Source: Anaerolinea thermophila (GTDB lineage: Bacteria; Chloroflexota; Anaerolineae; Anaerolineales; Villigracilaceae). From it: a stretch of 33,374 bases of DNA. Where the stretch lies: the NCBI GenBank assembly GCA_020721605.1, contig DYML01000016.1, positions 1 through 33,374 of the forward strand, read 5' to 3'. The position numbers and the translations under genes are program-made. The notes under the pieces were generated by a model. The model was not told where the DNA came from and ran no database searches. It saw only the letters and a program-made list of their open reading frames with translations. This document shows, piece by piece, positions 18,558-33,374 of the stretch; the first letter of the stretch is position 1, and each line of letters starts with the position of its first letter.

Positions 18558-21500
18558 ATGATTGCACCAAATCTTTCTGTTGATTTTTATGTAGTGGGAA
18601 TTGGCGCATCTGCTGGCGGGTTGGAAGCGCTCGAAAAATTTTTTAGCAACGCGCAACCTGATAGCGGCATGGCGTATGTGGTGATTCAACACCTTTCACC
18701 CGACTACAAAAGTCTGATGGCTGATTTGCTTTCCAGACGAACAGAATTACCCGTGCTGGTTGCCCAAGACGGTATGCTTGTTGAGCCAAATCACGTTTAC
18801 CTCATTCCCCCCAAACAAAGCATTACCATATTTCACCGCAAACTTTTTTTGACCGACCGCGAAACAGGGCTGCTGTATTTACCGATTGACATTTTTTTTC
18901 AATCGCTGGCACAAGACCTGGGAGAAAAAGCCATTGGCGTCATTCTTTCTGGCACTGGCAGTGACGGCTCGCGCGGTTTGCGCGCCATTAAAGAAAATGG
19001 CGGCTTGGTAATAGTTCAAGATGAGAAATCTGCCAAGTTTGATGGAATGCCGCGCAGCGCCATTGCCACCAATCTTGTTGATTATATTTTGCCGCCAGAA
19101 CACATGGCGCGCGAAATGCTCAATTATGTTCAACATCCCTGCCTAATCAGCGACCCGGCGGTAAAGCGCGTTATCTCGCAGGATGATGACAGCCTGAGCA
19201 AAATATTTGCACTCCTGCGCACCAGCAGCAGCGTAGACTTTACTTATTACAAACAGACCACCATGGTGCGGCGAATTGAGCGGCGCATGGGCATTAAGCA
19301 GATTGAAAAATTAAGCGACTATCTTCACTTTTTATACCAAACGCCCTCAGAAGTAAACACACTCTTTCGAGAATTTCTAATTGGCGTTACCCGATTCTTC
19401 CGCGACACAGAAGCATTTGAAGAAGTTAAAAAGGTGGTAATTCCGTCAATTTTTGCAAACAAACATCGCGGCGACACAATCCGCGTTTGGGTGGCGGCAT
19501 GTTCCACAGGTGAAGAGGCTTACTCCATTGCCATTCTCTTAACAGAGTACATGGAGACCACAGGTCATCACATGGACATTAAGGTTTTCGCTACTGATTT
19601 GGATAAGAACGCGCTGGAATTTGCCGGTAAGGGAATTTACCCCGAAAGTATTGCCGAGGATGTCTCTCCCGACTACCTGCAAAATTATTTTGTTAAAAGC
19701 GGCGAGAGTTATTGCGTTTCCAGGCGCGTGCGTGAAATGGTGATCTTTGCCCAACAAAATATTATTACCGACCCGCCCTTCTCAAAAGTAGATTTAATCT
19801 CCTGCCGCAATGTCTTAATTTATTTACAGCCAATCTTGCAAAAGAAGGTGATCTCTGCCTTTCAATTTGGATTAAACCCTGACGGTTTTCTTTTTCTTGG
19901 CACGAGCGAAACCATAGGCGACTCGGATGACTTCTTTCAAAATCGGCACATCAAATGGAAGATTTATCAATACAAAGGCGGGTTTCGCCCATCACTAGAT
20001 GATAATCGTCTGGTGCGCTCGCCAATACCAATTCAACCAGGCTTGGGGCAACGCTATCGTCAGAATCCAGCCGCGCGTGATGATCTACGTCTCATTGAAG
20101 GAATTCAGCGCGGAGTAATTCAGGCATTTTTGTACCCAACCGTGGTGGTAGATGAAAACCAAGACGTGATTTATGTTGCGGGAAATATGGATGCTTATTT
20201 ACGAGTATCAAGCGGCGGAATGTTCAGCGCCAATATTTTAAAGCAGGCACGCGAAGGACTTTCTGTTCCACTCAGCACGGCAATTCACAAGGTATTTAAT
20301 GATCAGCAGGAAATAATTTATAAAAATATCCGCCTGACCGAACAACCTGCCGAAACAAATTTGATAGATATAAGAGTCAAGCCGTTTGTTGAGCCAGCCA
20401 GCCGTCAGAAGATGGCAATCATTCAATTTGTCCCAATCGTACAGTCTCACATCCCTGATACTACCGCAACACAATCATTTGATGTAAACGCCGGCGCACA
20501 ACAGCGGATTCAAGACTTGGAACACGAATTGCAATTTACGCGCGAAAGTCTGCAAGCCACTGTCGAAGAACTGGAAACCTCCAACGAGGAACTGCAAGCC
20601 ACCAACGAGGAGTTGTTTGCATCAAACGAAGAATTACAAAGTACCAATGAAGAACTGCATTCCGTCAATGAAGAACTGATTACAGTGAATGCAGAATATC
20701 ACGCCAAGATACAAGAGCTGACCAAACTTAACGAAGACATTAACAACTTATTAAGCAGCGCCGATATTGGCATCATCTTTCTCGACCGCAATCTGCGCAT
20801 CCGCCTATTTACCCCATCGGTTCAACATGAAATTCATCTGCTTGAACAGGATATTGGGCATCCGATCAACCATGTTACACATACAATTATTAACTGCAAC
20901 CTGGCGCATGAAGCCCAGCAGGTATTAACGACTCTTATGACAAATGAAATGGAAGTGCAGAACACAAACGGGCGCTGGTATCAAATAAAATTTTTACCCT
21001 ATTACACGTTACAACAGCAAGTTGGCGGCGTGGTCATTACCCTATTAGATGTTACTGAGTTTAAACGGGCAAATATGCAGTTAGCCCGCTTGTCTGCCGC
21101 AGTAGAACAAAGCACCGCGTCCATTGTCATCACCGACACAGAAGGCAACATTGAGTATGTCAACCCGCGTTTTACGCAAACCACAGGCTACAGCCTGCAA
21201 GAGGCGCTCGGTAAGAATCCGCGCATTCTAAAAACAGATAAAACCCCACCAGAGACATTTCGTCAATTGTGGGAGACGATTAGCAACGGCAAGGTCTGGA
21301 GCGGAGAATTTATCAATCAAAAGAAAAACGGCGAAATATTCTATGAATACGCCAGCGTATCGCCCATCCTTGATGAAAAAGGCAAAACCACCCAGTACTT
21401 AGCCGTCAAGGAAAACCTGACTGAAAGAAAAACAATGGAAAAAGCGCTGGGTGAAAGTGAACAGCGCTACCGAATGTTATTTGATTCCTTTCCGCAGGGA

Positions 21501-21857
21501 TTGACAGTTGCCGACCGAAATGGAAAAATATTGGAAAGCAACCGCGAAGCCGAGCGTATTTTAGGACTAAAAAAAGAAAGCCAGCAAAAACGCAATATTC
21601 ACGACCCTGAATGGAAAGTTGTCCGCCCTAATAATTCACCCATGCCGCTGGAAGAATACGCTAGTTTCCGCGCGCTAAAAGAAAACAAGATCATTGAAAA
21701 TGTCAAAATGGGCATTATCAAAGAAAATGGGCAAGTCACTTGGATTACCGTATCTGCCGCTCCACTCGGCAAGATCGGCGTTATCATTACCTACAAAGAG
21801 ACAGGCTCCAACCTTGAAGAGAAAAATACAAAAATGTTAGACAGAAAGACAGTATGA
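18558..21857 (+). CDS. CheB-CheR fusion with coiled coil and PAS domains
   Basis: A 1099-residue cytoplasmic signalling protein. Order: CheB methylesterase (about 10-190) with triad S18 (GASAGG), H45 (IQHLSP) and D136 (GSDGSRG), but no receiver domain; CheR methyltransferase (about 215-480) with [13 protein letters not shown] (SAM site) and [11 protein letters not shown]; a long Glu/Asn heptad coiled coil (about 650-730, repeated EELQATNEE-type units); then three PAS domains (about 735-1085). It has no kinase or GGDEF output. In the family, CheB removes and CheR adds methyl groups on receptor glutamates, but no chemoreceptor or CheA is encoded here. In such fusions the pair may modify PAS proteins instead. 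ATG 18558 has AGAGGT upstream. The 3' end overlaps the next gene by ATGA. The 116 bp before it hold no visible promoter or terminator. Confidence 0.92.
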
Positions 21858-23425
21858 AAAAACAAGATTTAAACCCCATTAATATGGATTTTTCTGATCT
21901 CAGGCGGCAGGCTGAGAAAATATTACCCGAAGCGGCGCTGCCAGCAATACCGATAAATTCCATTGAAGATGCAGAGCGATTGATCACAGAATTGCAAGTG
22001 CATCAAATTGAGTTGGAATTACAAAACGATGAGCTACGAAAAATGCAGGATCAACTATTTGGTGAAAGGGAAAAATATGCCGACCTCTACAATTTTGCCC
22101 CGGTGGCTTATTTTACGTTTGATGAACGGGATGTAATTTTAGACCTCAATCAGGCTGCCGCCGACCTATTGGGAAATGACCGCAAATTTTTAATAGGGCA
22201 TCCGCTCACACCGTACATCACCCCTGCTTCACTGCAAATATTTATCAGACACCGCCAGCTATCTTTGGAGACAAAAGTTCCACAGGTCTGTGAGTTAATC
22301 ATTCGCTTGCGAAGCGGCTAAACAAGCTGCGTCCATGTGCGGACTGTGGCGCTGGAAACAGCGCCCGATGCGCCGCAGGCTTGGCGTTCAGTGATGACCG
22401 ATATTACTGAAAGAAAATATGCGGAAAATGAATTACAAAAGTTGAACGAACACCTGGCGGCTACCCTTCACGCACTGCCAGACTTGGCATTTGAAACAGA
22501 CCTCAACGGAGTAATTTATGATTACCATGCATCCCGCCCCGAATTGTTATACCTCCCGCCGCAACAATTTATTGGAAAAAAACTCGATGACCTATTACCC
22601 TCAAGCGCCGTTCAAAGTATTAGATCGGCGCTAAAGGAAGCCTCAGAAAAAAGCGTATCTTTTGGCGAAACCTATTCCCTGCCCATTCAAAATAAAACTG
22701 CCTGGTTTGAATTATCTATTGCAGTGGTGGGCGATATAAAGTCCAGCGACAAGCGCTTTATTGTTTTAGCCCGTAATATTACCGACCGCAAAAAAATTGA
22801 AGAAGATCTAACCTTATCGAATAACGCTCTTCAAACTCACATTTTGGCAATTGAACAGTTGCATGACCAATTGCGCGAACAAGCCATCCGTGACCCGCTA
22901 ACGGGATTATTTAATCGGCGGTATTTGCAGGAAACCCTTGACATTGAAGTCTCACGCGCACAACGATCAAACAGCCCAATTGGTTTTATCATCATAGATT
23001 TGGATTATTTTAAGCAAGTCAATGATTCGTATGGACACAAAGCAGGCGACTTGGTGCTGCAAAAACTGGGCGGGCTGATTCTCCGAAACTTACGCATGGG
23101 GGATGTCTCCTGCCGTTATGGCGGCGAAGAATTTACGATTATGATGCCGGGCGCAACGCTAAACATTACTGTTAATCGTGCCGAACACCTATTACGTCAA
23201 ATAAACAAAATGGATATTGAATACCATGGCGCAACAATAAAAATTACAGCATCCATGGGGGTTGCCGTGTTTCCCGACCACGATACAGGCAGCGAGGATG
23301 TATTAATCTGCGCAGACCGCGCTCTTTACCGCGCCAAGTCGCTTGGACGCAATCAGGTCGTTGTATACCAAAATAATAATTACCTGATTAAAAATCCTTT
23401 GACGATAGAAAAACATAAAAAATAG
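21854..23425 (+). pseudogene. PAS-PAS-GGDEF diguanylate cyclase gene interrupted by an in-frame TAA
   Basis: Read as one frame this is a 523-residue cyclase: coiled-coil start (HQIELELQNDELRKMQDQL), PAS 1 (about 75-190), PAS 2 (about 200-320), then GGDEF. Codon 156 (22319-22321) is TAA inside PAS 1, between RLRSG and TSCVHVRTVALE. Homology resumes directly in the same frame, and a single G-to-T change in GAA would explain it. The GGDEF domain looks active: DPLTGLFNRR, metal-binding DLDYFK, catalytic GGEEF at 423-427, and an RMGD inhibitory site five residues before it. The 155-residue N-terminal product would be a half PAS. A GTG at 22337 could in theory restart a PAS-GGDEF product, but has no ribosome binding site. 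The start overlaps the CheB-CheR stop. Sequencing error is possible. Confidence 0.85.
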
Positions 23426-23489
23426 TGGATACCCAGGCGAGCGGCGCAGCAAAATCGTATTGCAAACACCACCCGTTTTTACTTTGAGT

Positions 23490-23822
23490 TTATCCCTCGC
23501 CTTTAAGCAAGCCCATGAATATATTTACCAAGAGGGGTTCAAAATGAGAGCCAGATTGACTGCGAATATATTCAATTACCTCGGCTTTCGACATGGCGGC
23601 GCGATAGGGGCGGTCTGAACTTAACACATCCCAGACATCCACAATGGCAAACAGGCGGGCAAAAAGCGGAATCTCTTCGCCACGCAATCCGCGCGGGTAG
23701 CCGCTGCCATCCCATTTTTCGTGGTGACAATAAGGAATATCCACAGCGTTTTTAAGAAAAGTGATTGGAGAAAGCCTGCGAATCGAAGCGTAGTTTTGCC
23801 ATGACGTGCGCGCGGTGTTCAT
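23490..23822 (-). pseudogene. 3' remnant of an HD-GYP phosphodiesterase gene
   Basis: The 110 codons match only the C-terminal half of an HD-GYP domain: LSPITFLKNAVDIPYCHHEKW, then DGSGYPRGLRGEEIP and LFAIVDVWDVLSSDRPYR, ending normally. The GYP signature is intact. The first half, including the HD metal ligands, and any receiver domain are missing, so c-di-GMP hydrolysis is not expected. It lies 13 bp after the hybrid kinase on the same strand, where a complete response-regulator phosphodiesterase would fit. The kinase stop overlaps an ATGA that opens a seven-codon frame (MSGIGE, stop), perhaps the relic of the original start. A deletion of the 5' part is the simplest reading. The 64 bp to the convergent cyclase gene hold no clear terminator. 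Confidence 0.8.
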
Positions 23823-23835
23823 TCTCCTATGCCGC

Positions 23836-26800
23836 TCATTTCCTGCCTCTCGTCCATTGATTCAGCAGTTCGCTTAAATCTCTAAGTTTGAGCGGTTTGC
23901 TGATGTAGTCATTTGCGCCAGCCTCCAAACAGAGTTCCTTGTCTCCGGGCATGGCAAGGGCGGTGATGGCAATGATGGGCGCGGATGCAATTTCCGCGTT
24001 GGGGTGGGCGCGGACGCGGCGGATGGTTTCCAGCCCATCCATGCCGGGCATTTGAATATCCATCAGAATGACATTTGGCTTGATGCTTTCAATTTTTTCC
24101 AGAAGTTCCCTGCCGCTTTGGCTTTGGGCGGTGCGAAAGTGCTTTGCCTCCAGAAAGTCGCACATCATCTCCAGCAGCACTTCATTGTCATCAACAATCA
24201 AGATCATGGGAGAGGATGGGTCTTCATCCACCGCGCCCTGTGGCAATTCAGCGCCAACCGCCGCTGCTGAAGCGTTAGGCAGCGGATTCTTCAGGTACGG
24301 CAGGGTGACAATAAAACGGCTGCCTTCGCCAAATTTGCTTTCCACTTTCACGCTGCCATTGTGCAGTTCCACCAAACGCCGCACGAGGGCAAGCCCCAAG
24401 CCGGTGCCGGAATATTCGCGCGCCAGGCTGCTGTCAATTTGGGTAAAAGGCTTGAAGAGTTTCGGCAGGTTTTCCGACTTGATGCCGATGCCCTTATCCC
24501 AGACCGCCAGCCTGACCTGCTGGTTTGCTTCGTCGGGTTCGACGGTGAGTCCCAACTCGCCAGATTCGGGGGTAAATTTGATGGCATTACTAATGAGGTT
24601 GACGATGACCTGTTTGATGCGCCGCGAATCCACATTGAGGAAAATGGGATCAATTGGCGCGGAGTATCTGACTTGCTGGCGTTTTTGATGCGCCATGCCC
24701 TTGGTCAAATGCAAGCTGGATTGAGAAATATCTTTTAGTGAGCAGCGTTCAATCTGTAATTCCAATTTGCCCGCTTCAACCTTCGACAAATCCAGCACAT
24801 CGTTGATCAATTCCAAAAGATGCCTGCCGCTGTTTTCGATATTTTTGATTGTCACAATCTGACGGTCGCTCAGGCTGCCGTAGGTTTCCAGTTGCAGCGC
24901 TTCAGACAAGCCGAGAATGCCGGTGAGCGGGGTGCGTAGTTCGTGGCTCATGGTGGCAAGGAATTCGTCTTTCATACGCATGGCGCGTTCCAATTCCAGG
25001 TTAACGCGCAGCAGGGTTTCTTCGGCTTTTTTGTGCGCGGAAATATCGCTGGTGGTGACGAGGATATGATTGATGGAGTTGATTTGCAAAATAAAAATAC
25101 GGCTTTCTACAATTCGCTTTGTCCCGTCCGCGCTGGTTAGGAAGTGTTCCACAAGGGCGAAGTTTTCCTGCCGCGAGAGGGCATCAATCATTGATTCCGT
25201 CAGGCGTGTGGTTACATCTGGCTCAACCAGTCCCGTCTCTTCGGCGGTTTTACCGTACAATGCAGAACGTGGAAAACCAGTCAGTTCTGCATAGACACGA
25301 TTGGCGTGGATGATATGCCCGGTTTCATCCAACAATGCGATGGGGATTGGCGATTCTTCAAAGAGCAGGCGGTTTTGTTCTTCGTTCTCGCGCAGGGCGC
25401 GTTCCGCTTTTTTGCGTTCGGTAATGTCAAAGATGGTGGAACGGCTCATCACAAACTTGCCAAATTCATCATACAGCGCGGTGGCGTTAAGCGAGACCGG
25501 CAGGAGCGAGCCGTCTTTGCGCATGAAATCAAGTTCTAGGTCTTTCAGCCAGCCGCGCTGGAGGAAAAGCGGAAAGTTCTTTCGGAAGATTTCCCGACTC
25601 TCTTCGGGTAAAAATTCCTGGGCGGTATGGCCTATCATTTCTTCACGGGTGTAGCCCATCCAGTTCAACTCGGTTTGGTTCACCAGAATATAATTTCCGT
25701 TGATGTCGAGGGAGTGATAGCCTGAAGGCGCGTTGTCGTATAAATCTTGCACCTCGGCAGCGCGCTGGGCAACCTTTTCCTCCAGCGTGTGGTTCAACTC
25801 CTGAAGTTCCTGCTGGGCAGTCTTGAGATCGTGAATGTCGGTGACATTGACCAATACCTGCGCCACTTGACCGGCTTCATCGTGGAGCGGTTGGAAGGCA
25901 GCGCGATACCAGCGCAGTCCATTTTTGACCATGCTTTGGGTTTCGTACACGGTTTCGCGGTTAATTTGGAAGACCTCTTGAACGGCTGCCATCTGGCGCG
26001 AAGCAAAAGGCTCTGGGAATGTTTCTTGAATCTTTTTGCCAATCAATTCCTGCGGCGTTCCTCCCAGGCTTTCCGCCGCCCTGTCGTTCATGTATAAAAA
26101 TGTTCCATTCTGATCTACGGTGGAAATGGCATTGTTTAAACTTTCCATCAAGCCGCGATATTTTTCCTCGCTTTCGCGCAGAGATTCTTCGGCTTGTTTG
26201 CGCTCGGTCACATCCTGAATGATGGCGATCATGCGCGCGGGCGCGCCGTTTTGGTCATAGGTGATTCTGCCTATTTGATGAATCCAGCGCTCGCTTCCAT
26301 TTTTCAGGCGGATTCGGTATTCGTAATTCATTTCCTCGCGCTGCTGGATGAACTGCAAGTCCAATTGCTGAATCCTGTCTTTTTCCTCGGACGTCATCAT
26401 CTCGGTCAGCAGTTTTTGGGTGATGACTGTTTCGCGCGGCAAATTGAGGATGTTGTACACCTCGTCGGAGCAGATGAGCGTGCTTTCTCCGCTGCGCCAT
26501 TCCATGTGACCAATATGCCCAATGCGCTGGGCTTCGGTCAAGAGCGTCTGGCTCTTTGTCAGCGCTTCCTCCGCCTGTTTTCGTCCGGTAATTTCAATGC
26601 CCATACATTGAATTTCAGCAGGCGCTTTGTTTTCGTCCGTGAGGCAGATGAACTCCCATAACGTAGTGCGAACCCCGCCATTTTTTGCGGGTTTGTCTAT
26701 CTCAACAGAAAACACCTGCCCCGGCTGGGCAACACATTTGGCGACAACTTCTTTTACCCGTTCATGGTGATATGAACACACGGCGGTTAGCACACTGGAT

Positions 26801-28698
26801 TTTGACATCCCCTCTGCCGCATATAGCCAGCCAAATTCCCTCTCAAAACTTTGATTCCAATAGGAATATTTTCCTTCCATATTCACGCGAATCACAAAAT
26901 GCGTTTCCGAGTCGATCAGCGATTTGAGTTTCTGTTCGTTTACCACCAGCGCATTTTCAAAATTCCTACGCTCGCTGATGTCGCGCGCAATGCTCATAAT
27001 GACGGTCTTGCCGAGGTATAAAACAAGGCTGGAACTAATTTCAAATGGAAGTTTTTTGCCGTCTTTTGTGGCGTGCCATGTTTCAAATATCTGCGCCTTG
27101 TCTGTAAGCATGGCGGCGATCAGCCGCTGAATTTTTTCGGGAGCCAGTTCAGCGTCAATATCCGAGATTTTCATTGAAAGGAGTTCTTCGCGGGTATAGC
27201 CCAAGACCATCGCGGCGGCATTGTTCACGTCTAAAATCCTTGCGTCAGAGTCAATGACCCAGACGGTGTCGTTCATGCCATTAATCAATTCCCGATACTT
27301 TATCTCGCTTTCGCGCAGTTTATCTTCCATCACCTTGCGTTCAGTGATGTCTTGAATCAACCCCATAATGGTCTGCTGCGGGTTTCCCTCCGTGTCGCAT
27401 TCCACTTGCCCATAAATGGCGACCCAGCGCATATTCCCTTTGACATCAAACATGCGATATTCCATGCGCAGGATTTTCTTTTGGCTCAACGCCTCTTGCA
27501 GCGCGGCAATTGTCCGCACCCTGTCATCGGGGTGAAATTGCGCCAAAATTGCGCCGAAGTCGTTCTGTTGGTTTTCGATGCCAAAAATGCTGGCGGCTTC
27601 AGGCGACCAGTCAATGCGGGCGGTGGGAACATGATAGCGCCAGGTTCCCATGTGGGCGGTCACCAGCGCGCGGCTTAATTGCTTGCTGCTGCTTTGCAGA
27701 GATTCCTCCATGCGCCGATGGGTAATGATATTTCCAATTTCCAAGGCAACGATTTCGAGCGCAGTGCGCGACCAGTCGGGGATGTTGGGTAAAGTGTGCG
27801 AAGCAATATTTAAACAGCCAAGAACCCGCCCGTGGTGTTGAATGGGAATGACTACCGCTGAACGCAAGCCCTCGGCGCGATGATAACTTTTTACTTGAAG
27901 GTCAGATTCTGTAAAGTATATGGCGTTGCCGCTTAAAACCATTTTCGCGCTGGGCGTGTCTTCCCCGAACCGCGCCGTTGCGTCGGCAAATTTCACGCTC
28001 AAGCCTTGCTGACGAACAAGATTAAATACGCGGGAATCTTCATCAAAGAGATATAAGCCCCCGCTATCAAAGCTGGAAACGCGCATAACCTCCCGCAGGC
28101 ACAAGTCCCAGACCTCTTCCTTCGGCAGATTGGCGCTGGCTAATTTTGCAAGGTCGCGCTGGCTGGCAATTAAATCGGCAGAGCGGTTTCGTTCGGTCAC
28201 ATCGCGGATGGCGCACAAGACAACCACCTCGCCGTTCGTCAGTTTGTGATAACTCAGGCTAATCTCGGCTGGAAATTCTTGCCCACCCTGCCGCAGCCCG
28301 AAAATTTTGCGGTTGCCGCTGGTCGTTACGCTGTGGGGTTGCTGCATGAATTTGGCGCGATTCTCCACATGCCCGCCGCGCAGGGAGTTGGGAATCAAGG
28401 TTTCCACCGCCGCGCCGACCAGTTCTTTTTGAGAATAGCCGAACATTTTTTCCGCTTGCGCATTTGCCATCAGGATTTTGCCGTCTGCATCAATGGTGAA
28501 AATTGCGTCAGGCATGACTTCCAGCAATTCCCTTGTGCAGGCTTCGCTTTCTGCCATTGTCACAGGCAATGGGCTGGCATCGAAGGCGGAGGCAGGAAGT
28601 TCCTCTCTCCTCGTTGCGGCGGATTCCAATTCGGCAATCCGCTTATGCGCCTGTTCCAACTCTGCCTGAAGTTCGTTTTTTGTTTTTGCTTTGCTCAT
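23836..28698 (-). CDS. Soluble hybrid histidine kinase with GAF and eight PAS domains
   Basis: A 1620-residue cytoplasmic sensor kinase without membrane segments. Order: short coiled coil, PAS (about 60-180), GAF (about 195-335), seven further PAS domains ending in linkers such as DITERK (about 345-1225), HisKA with H1252 in ATMSHELRTPL, HATPase (NAIKFTPESG, DKGIGI, GTGLGLALV) and a C-terminal receiver with phospho-acceptor D1547 (LMDIQMPG) and Lys in YISKPLK. All catalytic residues are present. The start is ATG 28698, with GAGG six bases upstream; an in-frame TTG 16 codons earlier is unsupported. The receiver probably hands phosphate on to another protein. The adjacent HD-GYP gene would have been a natural partner but is truncated. 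The gene looks more G+C-rich than the left half of the window. Confidence 0.93.
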   Translation of the reverse strand: MSKAKTKNELQAELEQAHKRIAELESAATRREELPASAFDASPLPVTMAESEACTRELLEVMPDAIFTIDADGKILMANAQAEKMFGYSQKELVGAAVETLIPNSLRGGHVENRAKFMQQPHSVTTSGNRKIFGLRQGGQEFPAEISLSYHKLTNGEVVVLCAIRDVTERNRSADLIASQRDLAKLASANLPKEEVWDLCLREVMRVSSFDSGGLYLFDEDSRVFNLVRQQGLSVKFADATARFGEDTPSAKMVLSGNAIYFTESDLQVKSYHRAEGLRSAVVIPIQHHGRVLGCLNIASHTLPNIPDWSRTALEIVALEIGNIITHRRMEESLQSSSKQLSRALVTAHMGTWRYHVPTARIDWSPEAASIFGIENQQNDFGAILAQFHPDDRVRTIAALQEALSQKKILRMEYRMFDVKGNMRWVAIYGQVECDTEGNPQQTIMGLIQDITERKVMEDKLRESEIKYRELINGMNDTVWVIDSDARILDVNNAAAMVLGYTREELLSMKISDIDAELAPEKIQRLIAAMLTDKAQIFETWHATKDGKKLPFEISSSLVLYLGKTVIMSIARDISERRNFENALVVNEQKLKSLIDSETHFVIRVNMEGKYSYWNQSFEREFGWLYAAEGMSKSSVLTAVCSYHHERVKEVVAKCVAQPGQVFSVEIDKPAKNGGVRTTLWEFICLTDENKAPAEIQCMGIEITGRKQAEEALTKSQTLLTEAQRIGHIGHMEWRSGESTLICSDEVYNILNLPRETVITQKLLTEMMTSEEKDRIQQLDLQFIQQREEMNYEYRIRLKNGSERWIHQIGRITYDQNGAPARMIAIIQDVTERKQAEESLRESEEKYRGLMESLNNAISTVDQNGTFLYMNDRAAESLGGTPQELIGKKIQETFPEPFASRQMAAVQEVFQINRETVYETQSMVKNGLRWYRAAFQPLHDEAGQVAQVLVNVTDIHDLKTAQQELQELNHTLEEKVAQRAAEVQDLYDNAPSGYHSLDINGNYILVNQTELNWMGYTREEMIGHTAQEFLPEESREIFRKNFPLFLQRGWLKDLELDFMRKDGSLLPVSLNATALYDEFGKFVMSRSTIFDITERKKAERALRENEEQNRLLFEESPIPIALLDETGHIIHANRVYAELTGFPRSALYGKTAEETGLVEPDVTTRLTESMIDALSRQENFALVEHFLTSADGTKRIVESRIFILQINSINHILVTTSDISAHKKAEETLLRVNLELERAMRMKDEFLATMSHELRTPLTGILGLSEALQLETYGSLSDRQIVTIKNIENSGRHLLELINDVLDLSKVEAGKLELQIERCSLKDISQSSLHLTKGMAHQKRQQVRYSAPIDPIFLNVDSRRIKQVIVNLISNAIKFTPESGELGLTVEPDEANQQVRLAVWDKGIGIKSENLPKLFKPFTQIDSSLAREYSGTGLGLALVRRLVELHNGSVKVESKFGEGSRFIVTLPYLKNPLPNASAAAVGAELPQGAVDEDPSSPMILIVDDNEVLLEMMCDFLEAKHFRTAQSQSGRELLEKIESIKPNVILMDIQMPGMDGLETIRRVRAHPNAEIASAPIIAITALAMPGDKELCLEAGANDYISKPLKLRDLSELLNQWTRGRK

Positions 28699-28937
28699 GT
28701 TTTGCCTCACGCGCAGAAGATAAAAGGGCTTCGGTTTTTTCTTCAATGAATCGATTTTAACGTTTTATTTATTCACTTGAGCCTGTCTTCAGGATATGCT
28801 TGGATATGGTAATTTCCCTTCCTTAAGTCTACCATCCGTATTGCTACTTAATTCTACCGTCTTTTGGCAATGCGGCAATATGCGGAGTAAAGATCAAGTT
28901 CAGTGTTTTTTCGCAGTCACCTCCCGTAATTAAACAC
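28699..28937. other. Intergenic region between the divergent kinase and riboswitch transcripts
   Basis: No gene, repeat or structured element is recognised here. It must hold the minus-strand promoter of the hybrid kinase. A TAAAAT on the minus strand at about 28752-28757 is a weak -10 candidate, but no matching -35 is clear. Confidence 0.4.
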
Positions 28938-28967
28938 TTACATATATTTCGCTCTTCTTCTTATACT
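28938..28967 (+). promoter_or_regulatory. Promoter driving the c-di-GMP riboswitch transcript
   Basis: TTACAT (28938-28943), an 18-bp spacer and TATACT (28962-28967) place the transcript start near 28974, about ten bases before the conserved riboswitch sequence begins. Confidence 0.55.
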
Positions 28968-28983
28968 CCCGTTTACAAAAAAG

Positions 28984-29065
28984 AAAAAGGCAAACCTGTC
29001 GAAAGGCAGGGACGCAAAGTCATGGGTCTAAAGGCGCAACAGCGCCCACGATTGCCAGATTGCCA
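28984..29065 (+). ncRNA. c-di-GMP-I (GEMM) riboswitch
   Basis: The sequence matches the GEMM consensus in order. GGCAAACC is followed by the P2 stem CCTGTC-GAAA-GGCAGG (28995-29010), which has the GNRA tetraloop that docks in its receptor. Then come the hallmark GGGACGCAAAGTC and GGGTCTAA, the variable P3 hairpin GGCGC-AACA-GCGCC (29033-29046), and a 3' segment ending in TTGCC that closes P1 with the 5' GGCA. The G at the guanine-contacting position before CAAACC is kept, which favours c-di-GMP over cGAMP, although I aligned this by eye. The aptamer lies about 98 nt before the ATG at 29163. No terminator with a T-run follows, so control may act on translation or an unseen structure. Confidence 0.88.
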
Positions 29066-29162
29066 AATCTACAAATGCTGGTTGTACACGCAAATTTATA
29101 CAACTGCCCCTGATGTGGCGTCTGGATTTTCCGACCCAAATTGGTTCGTAACAGAGGCAAAT

Positions 29163-30638
29163 ATGTATAAATTTTTTGTTCAGGCAACTCTGATAATCAG
29201 CATGGCAATCTCTCCCTTCCTTGCTTTCCCTTTGGAAAAGCCAATCGAAGGAACGAAGGTCTCCGGCGTTGCGCAAACTTTACGTCTCCCCACACAACAA
29301 GTTAATGCGGATACATTATCTTTTGTGGATCTTCCATCGGCATGGGAATCCCAGCCTGCGCCGTCGCCTGCCCATACGTTTGGAAATCCCGCCGGGTGCG
29401 CCGCATCCGCGCCGACTCAGTCCCCGGTGGAAATGCTGGAAAACGTCCAGGCGCAACTCCCCGAACTTGATCTCGCCTCGCGCAGGCTGGGTTACATCTA
29501 TAACGGTACGCTCGATAGCATGGTCAGCGTGGGGGACGATCCGTTTGTTTATGAATTCTCTGTCAACTTGTATCAATCTCCCTTTACCTATCTTGCCGAT
29601 CAAACGGTGACGGTTTTCCTGCAAAACGGATTTGTCGTCTGGCTGCGTAACTACGGAGGGCATTTCCGCCTGACCGCCATTCCGATGGTGGACGGTGTGT
29701 ACGAATCACGTTGGGGTGAATACATAAGCGCCTACTGGTCTACAGGTCTGCCGAATGATAAATATCTTTACCCTGTGATGAAGAAACTCCCCTGCCATTG
29801 GATGATTGACGAAGGCTGGGTCAGCGATGAAACGATTGGCAATATGTTTGATCTCGATTGGCAAATTCCCGACTACCTGACCGATGGGCGCAAGTATCTC
29901 GCCTCCAATTGTGAAGAGGCAAATCGAATATCACAGGAGCAGATCGGTTTCTGGGATGCGGCTTCCATGTGCGGACCCCTCGCCTGGACGTTGATCAAGA
30001 ATGCCAATTCCTTTCCGTATCGCATTGGCAGTTGGTACGCAAGCGCCCACATCTTTGAAGACGCCAATCCCAAGTGGAACGGGCGTCCGTGGGCGGGTTT
30101 CGATCCTGAGACCTACGATGTCATCCACACCGACAGCCCCATGCCTGGTTACGACTTTGCAGAAAACGGCAACATGGAAAAGGGCGACATTATTTATTCC
30201 TATTCCACGCTTTATGCCAGCAACGATGAACGCTTCGACCACATCTTTCTTGTTGCTGATGTCAATCAGAAAGGCGAGCGCATCAGTATTAGCAACATGG
30301 TGCAGAACAAGCCTGAATGGGATTGCTTCATTCAGGAGGTAGTCTTGTACACTCCCAGTGACTTGGTGGATGGGGTGATTAACAAACAATGGAATAGTTT
30401 TGAGAATGGGCGCACCGGCGTGATGGGTTTCGACATTTTCCGCTGGAAGTGGATCACCTATCACCTGGATGGGCTGCCTGTTTCGTACACCGTGCGGATT
30501 GGTGATACGCTCGAAACCATCGCCTTTGATTGGAAGGTCTCCCCGCAGGAAGTTGCAGCGTATAACCAGATTTCGATCACATCCCAATTAACCCCTGGTC
30601 AAATCATTACGCTCCCCGCTTTGTTGAGTTCGTTGTAG
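29163..30638 (+). CDS. Secreted cysteine-peptidase-like protein with C-terminal LysM domain
   Basis: A 491-residue exported protein. Residues 1-22 form a signal peptide (MYKFFVQATLIISMAISPFL). The middle holds a probable papain/NlpC-P60/CHAP-like catalytic core: C270 in ASMCGPLAW, H360 in FDHIFLVADV and N378 in ISNMVQN. The spacing and local motifs suit a Cys-His-Asn hydrolase acting on peptides or peptidoglycan, but the family is not certain. Residues about 440-487 are a LysM domain (YTVRIGDTLETIA, then LTPGQIITLP) that should bind glycan. The region 55-250 is unrecognised. ATG 29163 is chosen because it starts the signal peptide and has GAGG upstream. A longer frame opening at 29022 would begin inside the riboswitch. 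The context implies c-di-GMP-controlled surface or wall remodelling. Confidence 0.82.
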   Translation: MYKFFVQATLIISMAISPFLAFPLEKPIEGTKVSGVAQTLRLPTQQVNADTLSFVDLPSAWESQPAPSPAHTFGNPAGCAASAPTQSPVEMLENVQAQLPELDLASRRLGYIYNGTLDSMVSVGDDPFVYEFSVNLYQSPFTYLADQTVTVFLQNGFVVWLRNYGGHFRLTAIPMVDGVYESRWGEYISAYWSTGLPNDKYLYPVMKKLPCHWMIDEGWVSDETIGNMFDLDWQIPDYLTDGRKYLASNCEEANRISQEQIGFWDAASMCGPLAWTLIKNANSFPYRIGSWYASAHIFEDANPKWNGRPWAGFDPETYDVIHTDSPMPGYDFAENGNMEKGDIIYSYSTLYASNDERFDHIFLVADVNQKGERISISNMVQNKPEWDCFIQEVVLYTPSDLVDGVINKQWNSFENGRTGVMGFDIFRWKWITYHLDGLPVSYTVRIGDTLETIAFDWKVSPQEVAAYNQISITSQLTPGQIITLPALLSSL

Positions 30639-30971: not shown

Positions 30972-33374
30972 TTAATGAATATGGGTTGCCGTTCCAGCCA
31001 CAACCGTGTAAGTGGTCTGCGGGAAGCCTGTGAAAGTGAATGCGTAACTGGCGGGCAGGAGTTCCATATCCTGCGTGAAGGGCTTGTAGCCGCTGGCATA
31101 ATACTGGGTGCAGGTCGCGCTATCGGAGTGGACTTCGCCAGTCTTGAATACCACCAGCGGATTGGTCGAGACATTCTGCGAGAATTCCTGCCGCGCCCCG
31201 ACGTAGTTCATGCCGAAGGAATAATTTAGCGGCAAAAGTTCAATGCTGACTTTGCCGTCCACCGTTGCGCCGATGTCCTTCCAGCCGCTGGCATAATATT
31301 GCGCGGCTCCCTCGGCGGGAAGTTGATCGAGCAGCCCCGCGCTGTTCTGCAACTGTACCTCAACCAATTTGGTCTTGAATACCACCAGCGGATTGGTCGA
31401 GACATTCTGCGAGAATTCCTGCCGCGCCCCGACGTAGTTCATGCCGAAGGAATAATTTAGCGGCAAAAGTTCAATGCTGACTTTGCCGTCCACCGTTGCG
31501 CCGATGTCCTTCCAGCCGCTGGCATAATATTGCGCGGCTCCCTCGGCGGGAAGTTGATCGAGCAGCCCTGCGCTGTTCTGCAACTGCACTTCGACTTTGG
31601 CGGTTTGATAAACCACAAAGGAATTTGTAGCGATGTTTTGAGTCTTGTCCACTGCGGCGCCTGCGTAGTTCATCTTGAACGTGATCGAACTCTTCAAGCC
31701 AGGCAGGAAGCCAAGCGTAATTCCATTGGAATTCGTGACCTCAGAAATGGGTTTCCATCCGCCGTCATAATATTGAGCGCTGCCGCCTGCAATCCCATTT
31801 TCTTTACTATTGATCAAGCGCAGGTAGGCAACGCTGTTCACGATCTCATCTGCGCCAACCACAAAGTTGGTTTGAATGGCTGGGAATCCCGTCCCTGAAA
31901 AGCGGAAGGGATACGTCCCCGGCAAGAGGTTGGTCGTCGGCTTGGTGAAGGTCTTCCAGCCGCCAGCGTAGTATTCGATATTACCGCTGAATTGCAGTGT
32001 GACCTTGCTGCCGGTGAAAATCACCAGCGGGCTAGCCGACACATCTTGATTCTTTTGCAATCCCGCTCCGTTGTAAGTCACCTTGAACGGATAGGTGGTG
32101 GGCAGCAACTGCATGGTGGTAGTCGTTGTGCCGCCACCAAAGGTCTTCCAGCCGCTGGCATAGTATTGTGAGCCGCCCGCCAATTCCGCGCCTGCCGCAT
32201 CAAGCAATTTCATTGTGACAAGCGTGGTGTTGAAGATGACTTCCCGTTTATCAACCGCTGTGACATCCTGATTCTTCTGGATGCTCGCGCCGCCATAGGT
32301 CACGCGGAACGGGTAAGTGGTCGGGAGTAATTCTGCGACCTCGGTTGTTGTGCCGCCGCCGAAGTCCTTCCAGCCGCTAGCGTAGTATGCCGCGACACCT
32401 TCGAGTTCTGCACCCGTCGAGTCAAGCAGTTTGAAGGTCACTGCCACCGTGTTGAAAGTAACCAACGGGTTATCCGCCACGTTTTGATTCTTCTGAATGC
32501 TCGCGCCGAGATACGTCACCTTGAAGGGGTAGGTCGTCGGCAGCAGTTCCAGCGTGGCGGGAGTTGTGCCAAAGTCCTTCCATCCGCTGGCATAGAACTG
32601 TCCCGCGCCCGCCAATTCCGCCGCAGTGGAACTGAGCAGTTTCATCGCGACAGATGTGGTGTTGAACACAACCAACGGGTTCGCAGCCACATCCTGATTC
32701 TTTTGGATGCTCGCACCGAGATAGGTAACGCGGAAGGGGTAGGTCGTCGGCAGCAGTTCCAGCGTTGCGGGAGTCGCGCCAAAGTCCTTCCAGCCGCCGG
32801 CGTAGAAATCAGCCTCGGCGGTCAGGTCGGTATCGCCTGCTTCGTTGAGCAATCTCACCGTCACCGCTTTGGTATTGAAGATGACCAGCGGATTATCCGC
32901 CACGTTTTGATTCTTCTGAATGCTCGCGCCGAGATACGTCACCTTGAACGGGTAAGTCGTCGGCAGCAGTTCCAGCGTGGCGGGAGTTGTGCCAAGGTCC
33001 TTCCAGCCGCTAGCGTAGAAATCAGCCTCGGCGGTCAGGTCGGCATCGCCCGCCGCATTGAGCAGTTTGACAGTCACCAGTTTGGTCTGGAATTTCACGT
33101 TCGGATCATCGGCAACATTTTGATTCTTCTGAATGCTCGCGCCGAGATACGTCACCTTGAACGGGTAGGTCGTCGGCAGCAGTTCCAGCGTTGCGGGAGT
33201 CGCGCCAAAATCCTTCCAACCGCTAGCGTAGAAATCAGCCTCGGCAGTCAGGTCGGCATCGCCCGCCGCATTGAGCAGTTTCACCGTCACCGCTTTGGTA
33301 TTGAAGATGACCAGCGGATTATCCGCCACGTTTTGATTCTTCTGAATGCTCGCGCCGAGATACGTCACCTTGAA
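30972..33374 (-). CDS. Tandem-repeat surface protein, N-terminus beyond the window
   Basis: A partial gene, open to the right edge with 800 codons visible and no start seen. It consists of 11 units of about 60-77 residues, most built as [VM]TYxGASIQKNQ, then NPLVxFNT, VTVKLL, an acidic loop, FYASGWKDFG, ELLPTTYPF. The alternating hydrophobic pattern suggests beta-sandwich (Ig-like) modules. The YYASGWK and LLPxxYPF motifs recur in nearly every unit. Units near the right edge are almost identical (213-bp period); those toward the C-terminus diverge. Units 9-10 repeat at 231 bp. A short C-terminal cap ends in GTATHIH. There is no LPXTG or membrane anchor at this end. An adhesin or sheath/S-layer-like role is inferred only from the architecture. 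Confidence 0.8.
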   Translation of the reverse strand, partial: FKVTYLGASIQKNQNVADNPLVIFNTKAVTVKLLNAAGDADLTAEADFYASGWKDFGATPATLELLPTTYPFKVTYLGASIQKNQNVADDPNVKFQTKLVTVKLLNAAGDADLTAEADFYASGWKDLGTTPATLELLPTTYPFKVTYLGASIQKNQNVADNPLVIFNTKAVTVRLLNEAGDTDLTAEADFYAGGWKDFGATPATLELLPTTYPFRVTYLGASIQKNQDVAANPLVVFNTTSVAMKLLSSTAAELAGAGQFYASGWKDFGTTPATLELLPTTYPFKVTYLGASIQKNQNVADNPLVTFNTVAVTFKLLDSTGAELEGVAAYYASGWKDFGGGTTTEVAELLPTTYPFRVTYGGASIQKNQDVTAVDKREVIFNTTLVTMKLLDAAGAELAGGSQYYASGWKTFGGGTTTTTMQLLPTTYPFKVTYNGAGLQKNQDVSASPLVIFTGSKVTLQFSGNIEYYAGGWKTFTKPTTNLLPGTYPFRFSGTGFPAIQTNFVVGADEIVNSVAYLRLINSKENGIAGGSAQYYDGGWKPISEVTNSNGITLGFLPGLKSSITFKMNYAGAAVDKTQNIATNSFVVYQTAKVEVQLQNSAGLLDQLPAEGAAQYYASGWKDIGATVDGKVSIELLPLNYSFGMNYVGARQEFSQNVSTNPLVVFKTKLVEVQLQNSAGLLDQLPAEGAAQYYASGWKDIGATVDGKVSIELLPLNYSFGMNYVGARQEFSQNVSTNPLVVFKTGEVHSDSATCTQYYASGYKPFTQDMELLPASYAFTFTGFPQTTYTVVAGTATHIH
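31141..31568 (-). repeat. 231-bp direct duplication within the repeat gene
   Basis: Positions 31141-31337 and 31372-31568 are identical over 197 bases at an offset of 231 bp (77 codons), and the flanks differ by scattered substitutions. Synonymous sites are also unchanged, so the copy arose or was homogenised recently. Confidence 0.9.

Follow-up and report, generated by a model that had tools for sequence, protein, structure and literature searches.

A c-di-GMP-I aptamer upstream of a putative exported LysM hydrolase gene in Anaerolineales: a probable translational OFF switch

Among c-di-GMP-I riboswitches, Vc2 of Vibrio cholerae is a translational OFF switch, for which folding order was argued to matter, and Cd1 of Clostridioides difficile is a transcriptional one (PMC9262584). 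Multiple aptamers were described in the triple-tandem switch Bc3-5 of Bacillus thuringiensis (PMC4759541) and, in Bacillota, in the tandem c-di-GMP-I switches located before yebA, which codes for a transglutaminase-like putative cysteine protease (PMC12452182). The position of Vc2 G20 plays a role in selectivity (PMC9262584) and is occupied by A in GEMM-I members of the cGAMP type (PMC6274999, PMC9262584). No paper on c-di-GMP or its riboswitches in Chloroflexi, Anaerolineae or Villigracilis was found in the open-access literature, and the host group is represented here solely by metagenome-assembled genomes. The present locus lies in a window of 33,374 nt (the whole stretch of DNA analysed), where a c-di-GMP-I riboswitch probably turns off translation of an exported LysM hydrolase at high c-di-GMP, through a kinetic mechanism.

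Aptamer identity and surroundings

An earlier note had proposed a GEMM-I aptamer in this window, a claim that passed the Rfam covariance-model check decisively. The match (cmscan) to RF01051, Rfam c-di-GMP-I, extended over 28979-29067 (+ strand) and the complete model (positions 1-87 of 87), with 86.6 bits and an E-value of 5.3e-16, the gathering score (the curators' cut-off) being 35 bits. RF01051 was still the top clan member with permissive filters. At the sequence level, the element is confirmed as a genuine c-di-GMP-I riboswitch aptamer. It does not belong to the c-di-GMP-I-GGC variant (RF03167), since RF01051 was the best match and the core reads CGCAAA, as opposed to the RF03167 consensus CGCGAA. 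The GGC ligand variant was also considered for several orthologue aptamers and dropped, the standard CGCAAA core being kept.

Binding of c-di-GMP is expected from the base at 28989 (+ strand, model position 11 in the alignment), which by our own reading of the numbering would be the equivalent of Vc2 G20 and is a G, as in the c-di-GMP type, and not the A of cGAMP-type members. That the ligand is instead 3',3'-cGAMP appears very improbable: same-genome aptamers C155, C46 and C146 have A or C in place of the selectivity base, so that a mixed set would be conceivable, but the window aptamer itself has G and the adjacent GGDEF protein carries the canonical Asp rather than the Ser of Hypr enzymes. 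This protein, a PAS-GGDEF diguanylate cyclase with a GGEEF motif (22337-23425, + strand; PF00990, E-value 7e-48), is encoded about 5.5 kb upstream of the aptamer, as context outside the switch; its Hypr position was assigned by the Asn-to-Asp spacing relative to Asn339/Ser348 of PMC6456294.

Six c-di-GMP-I matches were recorded in the window's genome. At one of these loci (L072, G000:C46:84-342, - strand), three c-di-GMP-I aptamers followed each other head to tail, almost without spacer, with a strong hairpin and then the contig end on their 3' side. Two of the three displayed A at the selectivity position, a base that goes with cGAMP in other GEMM-I RNAs. Likewise, A or C replaced the selectivity G in L002 (G000:C155), L004 (G000:C146) and L059, and a mixed c-di-GMP/cGAMP aptamer set in the window genome and in the family is possible.

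Beside the switch, a run of large signalling genes occupied 18558-28746, namely a CheB-CheR-PAS fusion, a PAS protein, the PAS-GGDEF cyclase and, divergent to the riboswitch, a multi-PAS hybrid kinase of 1636 aa. Immediately after the PAS kinase stop codon, at 23490-23822 (- strand), there was a match to positions 85-168 of PF13487, the C-terminal half of an HD-GYP-like phosphodiesterase domain; it looks like a remnant because its first half is missing.

A promoter-like site of weak consensus was read from the sequence at 28938-28967 (+ strand), composed of TTACAT (28938), 18 nt and TATACT (28962-28967). The latter is located 11 nt upstream of the aptamer and is conserved in G173, the closest orthologue, at almost the same position. 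Given this placement and conservation, transcription is predicted to begin at about 28974, so that the transcript would open with the aptamer. A generic promoter/terminator scan of the window returned nothing on the + strand and did not flag this site. The earlier description of the aptamer as lying between a promoter and a signal-peptide gene was nevertheless borne out, with this weak site upstream and the ATG of the exported-protein gene (29163) downstream.

The LysM gene and its product

The longest mechanical ORF of the LysM gene opens at 29022, inside the aptamer, as the earlier note had warned of the usual gene start. This start codon was rejected: it is not conserved, because the 75%-identical orthologue has a stop at the end of the aptamer. 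The conserved start is ATG 29163, common to the window gene and this orthologue (both proteins begin MYK-F), with a Shine-Dalgarno-like AGAGG read from the sequence 5 nt upstream (29153-29157, + strand).

Eleven genes of this LysM family were found in ten genomes. The named relatives are metagenome-assembled genomes of Chloroflexota, Anaerolineales, one of them labelled Candidatus Villigracilaceae. The aptamer-gene link is conserved, since an upstream aptamer was present at seven of these 11 orthologues from Anaerolineales (Villigracilaceae and relatives), the window included, in a 5'-leader position. It was single in the window, G173, G022 and G078 and occurred as two tandem copies in G031, G154 and G142. 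The four genes without aptamer are among the more diverged ones.

The gene (29163-30638, + strand) codes for a protein of 491 aa whose N-terminus is hydrophobic and, by inspection, signal-peptide-like. The combination of a Cys-His-Asn core with LysM claimed earlier was upheld by comparison of 13 sequences, in which Cys270 (within an invariant CGPL motif; codon 29970-29972), His360 (30240-30242) and Asn378 (30294-30296, all + strand) were invariant and in the same order across the 13 relatives, at identities down to 21%. The LysM domain (aa 442-485; 30486-30617, + strand) matched PF01476 with an E-value of 1.8e-9 and 37.9 bits against a cut-off of 20.9. No catalytic-domain model of Pfam or NCBIfam matched the window protein, and no Amidase_6 or CHAP-like match above cut-off was obtained; single-domain distant relatives from the same genus do match Amidase_6 (PF12671), one of them scoring 25.1 bits (cut-off 23.2). 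An AlphaFold model built from 13 sequences was of low confidence (mean pLDDT 59.5). A fold search of the PDB with this model retrieved mainly LysM, the core giving no significant match. A PDB profile search retrieved LysM only, together with weak unrelated matches. As the structure model is poor, a papain-like fold is proposed from sequence motifs.

The LysM protein is likely an exported hydrolase. It would be held on peptidoglycan by LysM and would probably cleave a wall or surface polymer via a papain-like Cys-His-Asn site; LysM, the export signal and the conserved residue set together suggest a role in wall or surface remodelling. On its far side, a gene of 213-bp and 231-bp tandem repeats occupied 30972-33368 (- strand) and reached the contig end. 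Its 231-bp repeat pair was 99% identical, and no convincing family match was obtained for this gene.

Leader strands, folding and direction of switching

The earlier note had described a leader of about 98 nt without terminator and an unexplained expression platform. The leader measures 95 nt from the aptamer end to ATG 29163, and the generic scan found no terminator-like site in it; the platform, on the other hand, can now be given a comparative explanation, a predicted sequestration of the start that is coupled to the aptamer 3' strand. Strand a (CCAGATTGCC, 29055-29064), the aptamer 3' strand formed by the base of P3 and the P1 side in the RF01051 structure line, can pair with the anti-aptamer strand b (GGCGTCTGG, 29117-29125) over 9 bp with one bulged base. 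The anti-start strand e (AAATTTATACA, 29092-29102) is the 11-bp complement of strand f (TGTATAAATTT, 29164-29174, all + strand), which belongs to the start-codon region. The helices a:b and e:f cross and therefore exclude each other in any nested fold.

The order a<e<b<f was shared by the window, G173 and the second aptamers of G031, G154 and G142. In these five translational leaders, which are partly homologous and not independent tests, a:b comprised 8-9 bp with one bulged base and e:f 8-11 bp. The arms of a:b read GTCTGG/CCAGAT in the window versus GCCTGGC/GCCAGGC in G173, an A-U pair of the window being G-C in G173. Similarly, matched differences separated the e:f arms of G031 (TGGCATTCC/GGAATGCCA) from those of G142 (TGACATTCC/GGAATGTCA), and ATTTATACAAC of strand e was kept in G173.

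Folding was computed without ligand and without tertiary contacts. In growing transcripts, a:b was the main fold once b was made, and e:f appeared only after f was made. The highest probability of a:b at intermediate lengths was 0.94 in the window, 0.80 in G173, 0.90 in G031, 0.89 in G154 and 0.91 in G142. With the aptamer held folded, e:f reached a probability of 0.9 in the window. At ligand-free equilibrium, e:f was preferred by about 2.6 kcal/mol in the window and by more in G173 and G142. In shuffled-leader tests, whose p values take the strands as picked after inspection of the sequences, the window gave p 0.015 for a:b and 0.19 for start sequestration; a:b failed in G142 (p 0.56) and start sequestration in G154 (0.22). 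The RNAduplex energy of the window aptamer 3' strand against the leader was by itself not unusual (p 0.17), and holding a:b left the Shine-Dalgarno unfreed in G031 and G154.

Control by Rho-dependent or coding-region termination, or by RNA stability, with a 95-nt leader that is itself no switch, would suit the lack of an intrinsic terminator in the window. It would also suit the behaviour of non-terminator leaders as a class, in which matched a:b pairing was not above permutation (p 0.31). We consider it unlikely, since five orthologous leaders, whose arm sequences differ, all show the a-e-b-f order and partial transcripts fold as this order predicts.

In the translational OFF reading that we favour, polymerase would pass about 29125 at low c-di-GMP, b would pair with a and the aptamer would open; strand e would then be enclosed in the a:b loop, leaving the start codon free for ribosomes. 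At high c-di-GMP, the ligand would lock strand a in the aptamer and b would stay free, so that the emerging strand f (29164-29174) could pair with e and hide the start codon together with part of the Shine-Dalgarno. As e:f is also the more stable ligand-free end fold, the switch has to act kinetically, during transcription; if there were no kinetic trapping, neither state would allow expression. The hydrolase would accordingly be made mainly in low-c-di-GMP cells. The aptamer, its conserved link to the gene and the two mutually exclusive helices are results of computation, from which we infer ligand binding, switching direction and enzyme activity; direction and mechanism are predictions from computed folds.

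The leaders of G022 and G078 displayed a plain intrinsic terminator between aptamer and ATG. Its 5' arm, GGCCTGGC or GGTCTGGC, complements the aptamer 3' strand GCCAGGCC, so that ligand binding would favour termination, i.e. OFF. This design was shared by the first aptamer of each tandem pair (G031, G154 and G142). Eighteen leaders of the family, including the sole aptamers of the LysM orthologues G022 and G078 as well as first aptamers of tandem pairs, were classed as terminator-type by a loose simple rule, which may have admitted a few that lack a true terminator (L058, L061 and the second G142 aptamer, for example). In these 18, the aptamer 3' strand paired with its own arm at a mean of -16.5 kcal/mol, against -14.1 kcal/mol with the arms of other leaders, a fit that none of 5000 permutations reached (p < 2e-4).

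This matched antiterminator geometry, LysM orthologues included, predicts OFF and thereby bears on the opposite reading, a translational ON switch in which c-di-GMP exposes the start site and more hydrolase is made. GEMM-I switches of both kinds are known (PMC9262584), and the full-length ligand-free RNA is start-sequestered at equilibrium, which would let another route make the ligand activating. Yet, the start is not released when the aptamer is kept folded: accessibility of the window ATG was 0.35 with the aptamer held and 0.37 when free, as compared to 0.73 with a:b held. An ON switch is therefore improbable, and the OFF direction is retained below.

Targets in the family and comparison with known systems

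Aptamers of class c-di-GMP-I were common in the family, with at least one in 114 of 150 genomes and up to 13 per genome. Among the 35 loci that were read out, which are the highest-scoring ones and not a random sample, the downstream genes mostly coded for exported proteins: twelve were sortase-like, four belonged to the LysM family and several others had signal-peptide-like starts, one of the latter showing a glycosyl-hydrolase model match. Within the window's genome, a sortase gene (NF053836) follows one aptamer and a gene for an exported protein another.

At four loci with sortase-like genes (L043, L049, L062 and L063), the leaders were devoid of terminators and displayed a hairpin in which CTGGATGC pairs with the start ATGGCATCC and the loop contains the Shine-Dalgarno; this appears to represent a second kind of platform that sequesters the start.

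Villigracilaceae and related Anaerolineales may use c-di-GMP-I riboswitches as a dedicated OFF regulon that covers sortases and exported proteins, in which the platform was repeatedly replaced at the orthologous hydrolase gene (terminator, terminator plus start-sequestering tandem, or start-sequestering alone) with aptamer and logic kept constant. This combined proposal is put forward tentatively, with a little less than even confidence. Such a regulon, listing c-di-GMP-responsive exported proteins, would offer an initial, testable picture of how these bacteria control their surface, and the orthologue series would constitute a small natural experiment in which expression platforms were exchanged and the aptamer was kept.

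The closest parallel is Vc2, with which the window shares the aptamer class and, by prediction, the use of the aptamer end strand as switching strand and a translational control thought to be kinetic. Gene and phylum differ, the start-codon helix and leader sequence are unrelated, and the mechanism is here a predicted one. Cd1 resembles the orthologue leaders of G022 and G078, where OFF logic would be exerted through an antiterminator and a terminator, in contrast to the terminator-less window leader. As for Bc3-5 and yebA, c-di-GMP-I aptamers, single or tandem, again precede surface or cysteine-protease-like genes; yet the window displays one aptamer, tandem pairs being encountered in three orthologues, and protein family and phylum are others. 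At the protein level, the distant single-domain relatives that match Amidase_6 (PF12671, a putative amidase domain) share Cys, His and Asn with the window protein, which itself misses this model, is extended by some 240 residues at the N-terminus and bears a LysM domain. Aptamer class, OFF logic and translational mode are already known elsewhere; what this locus adds is a new member, whose expression platform has a history that can be read by comparison.
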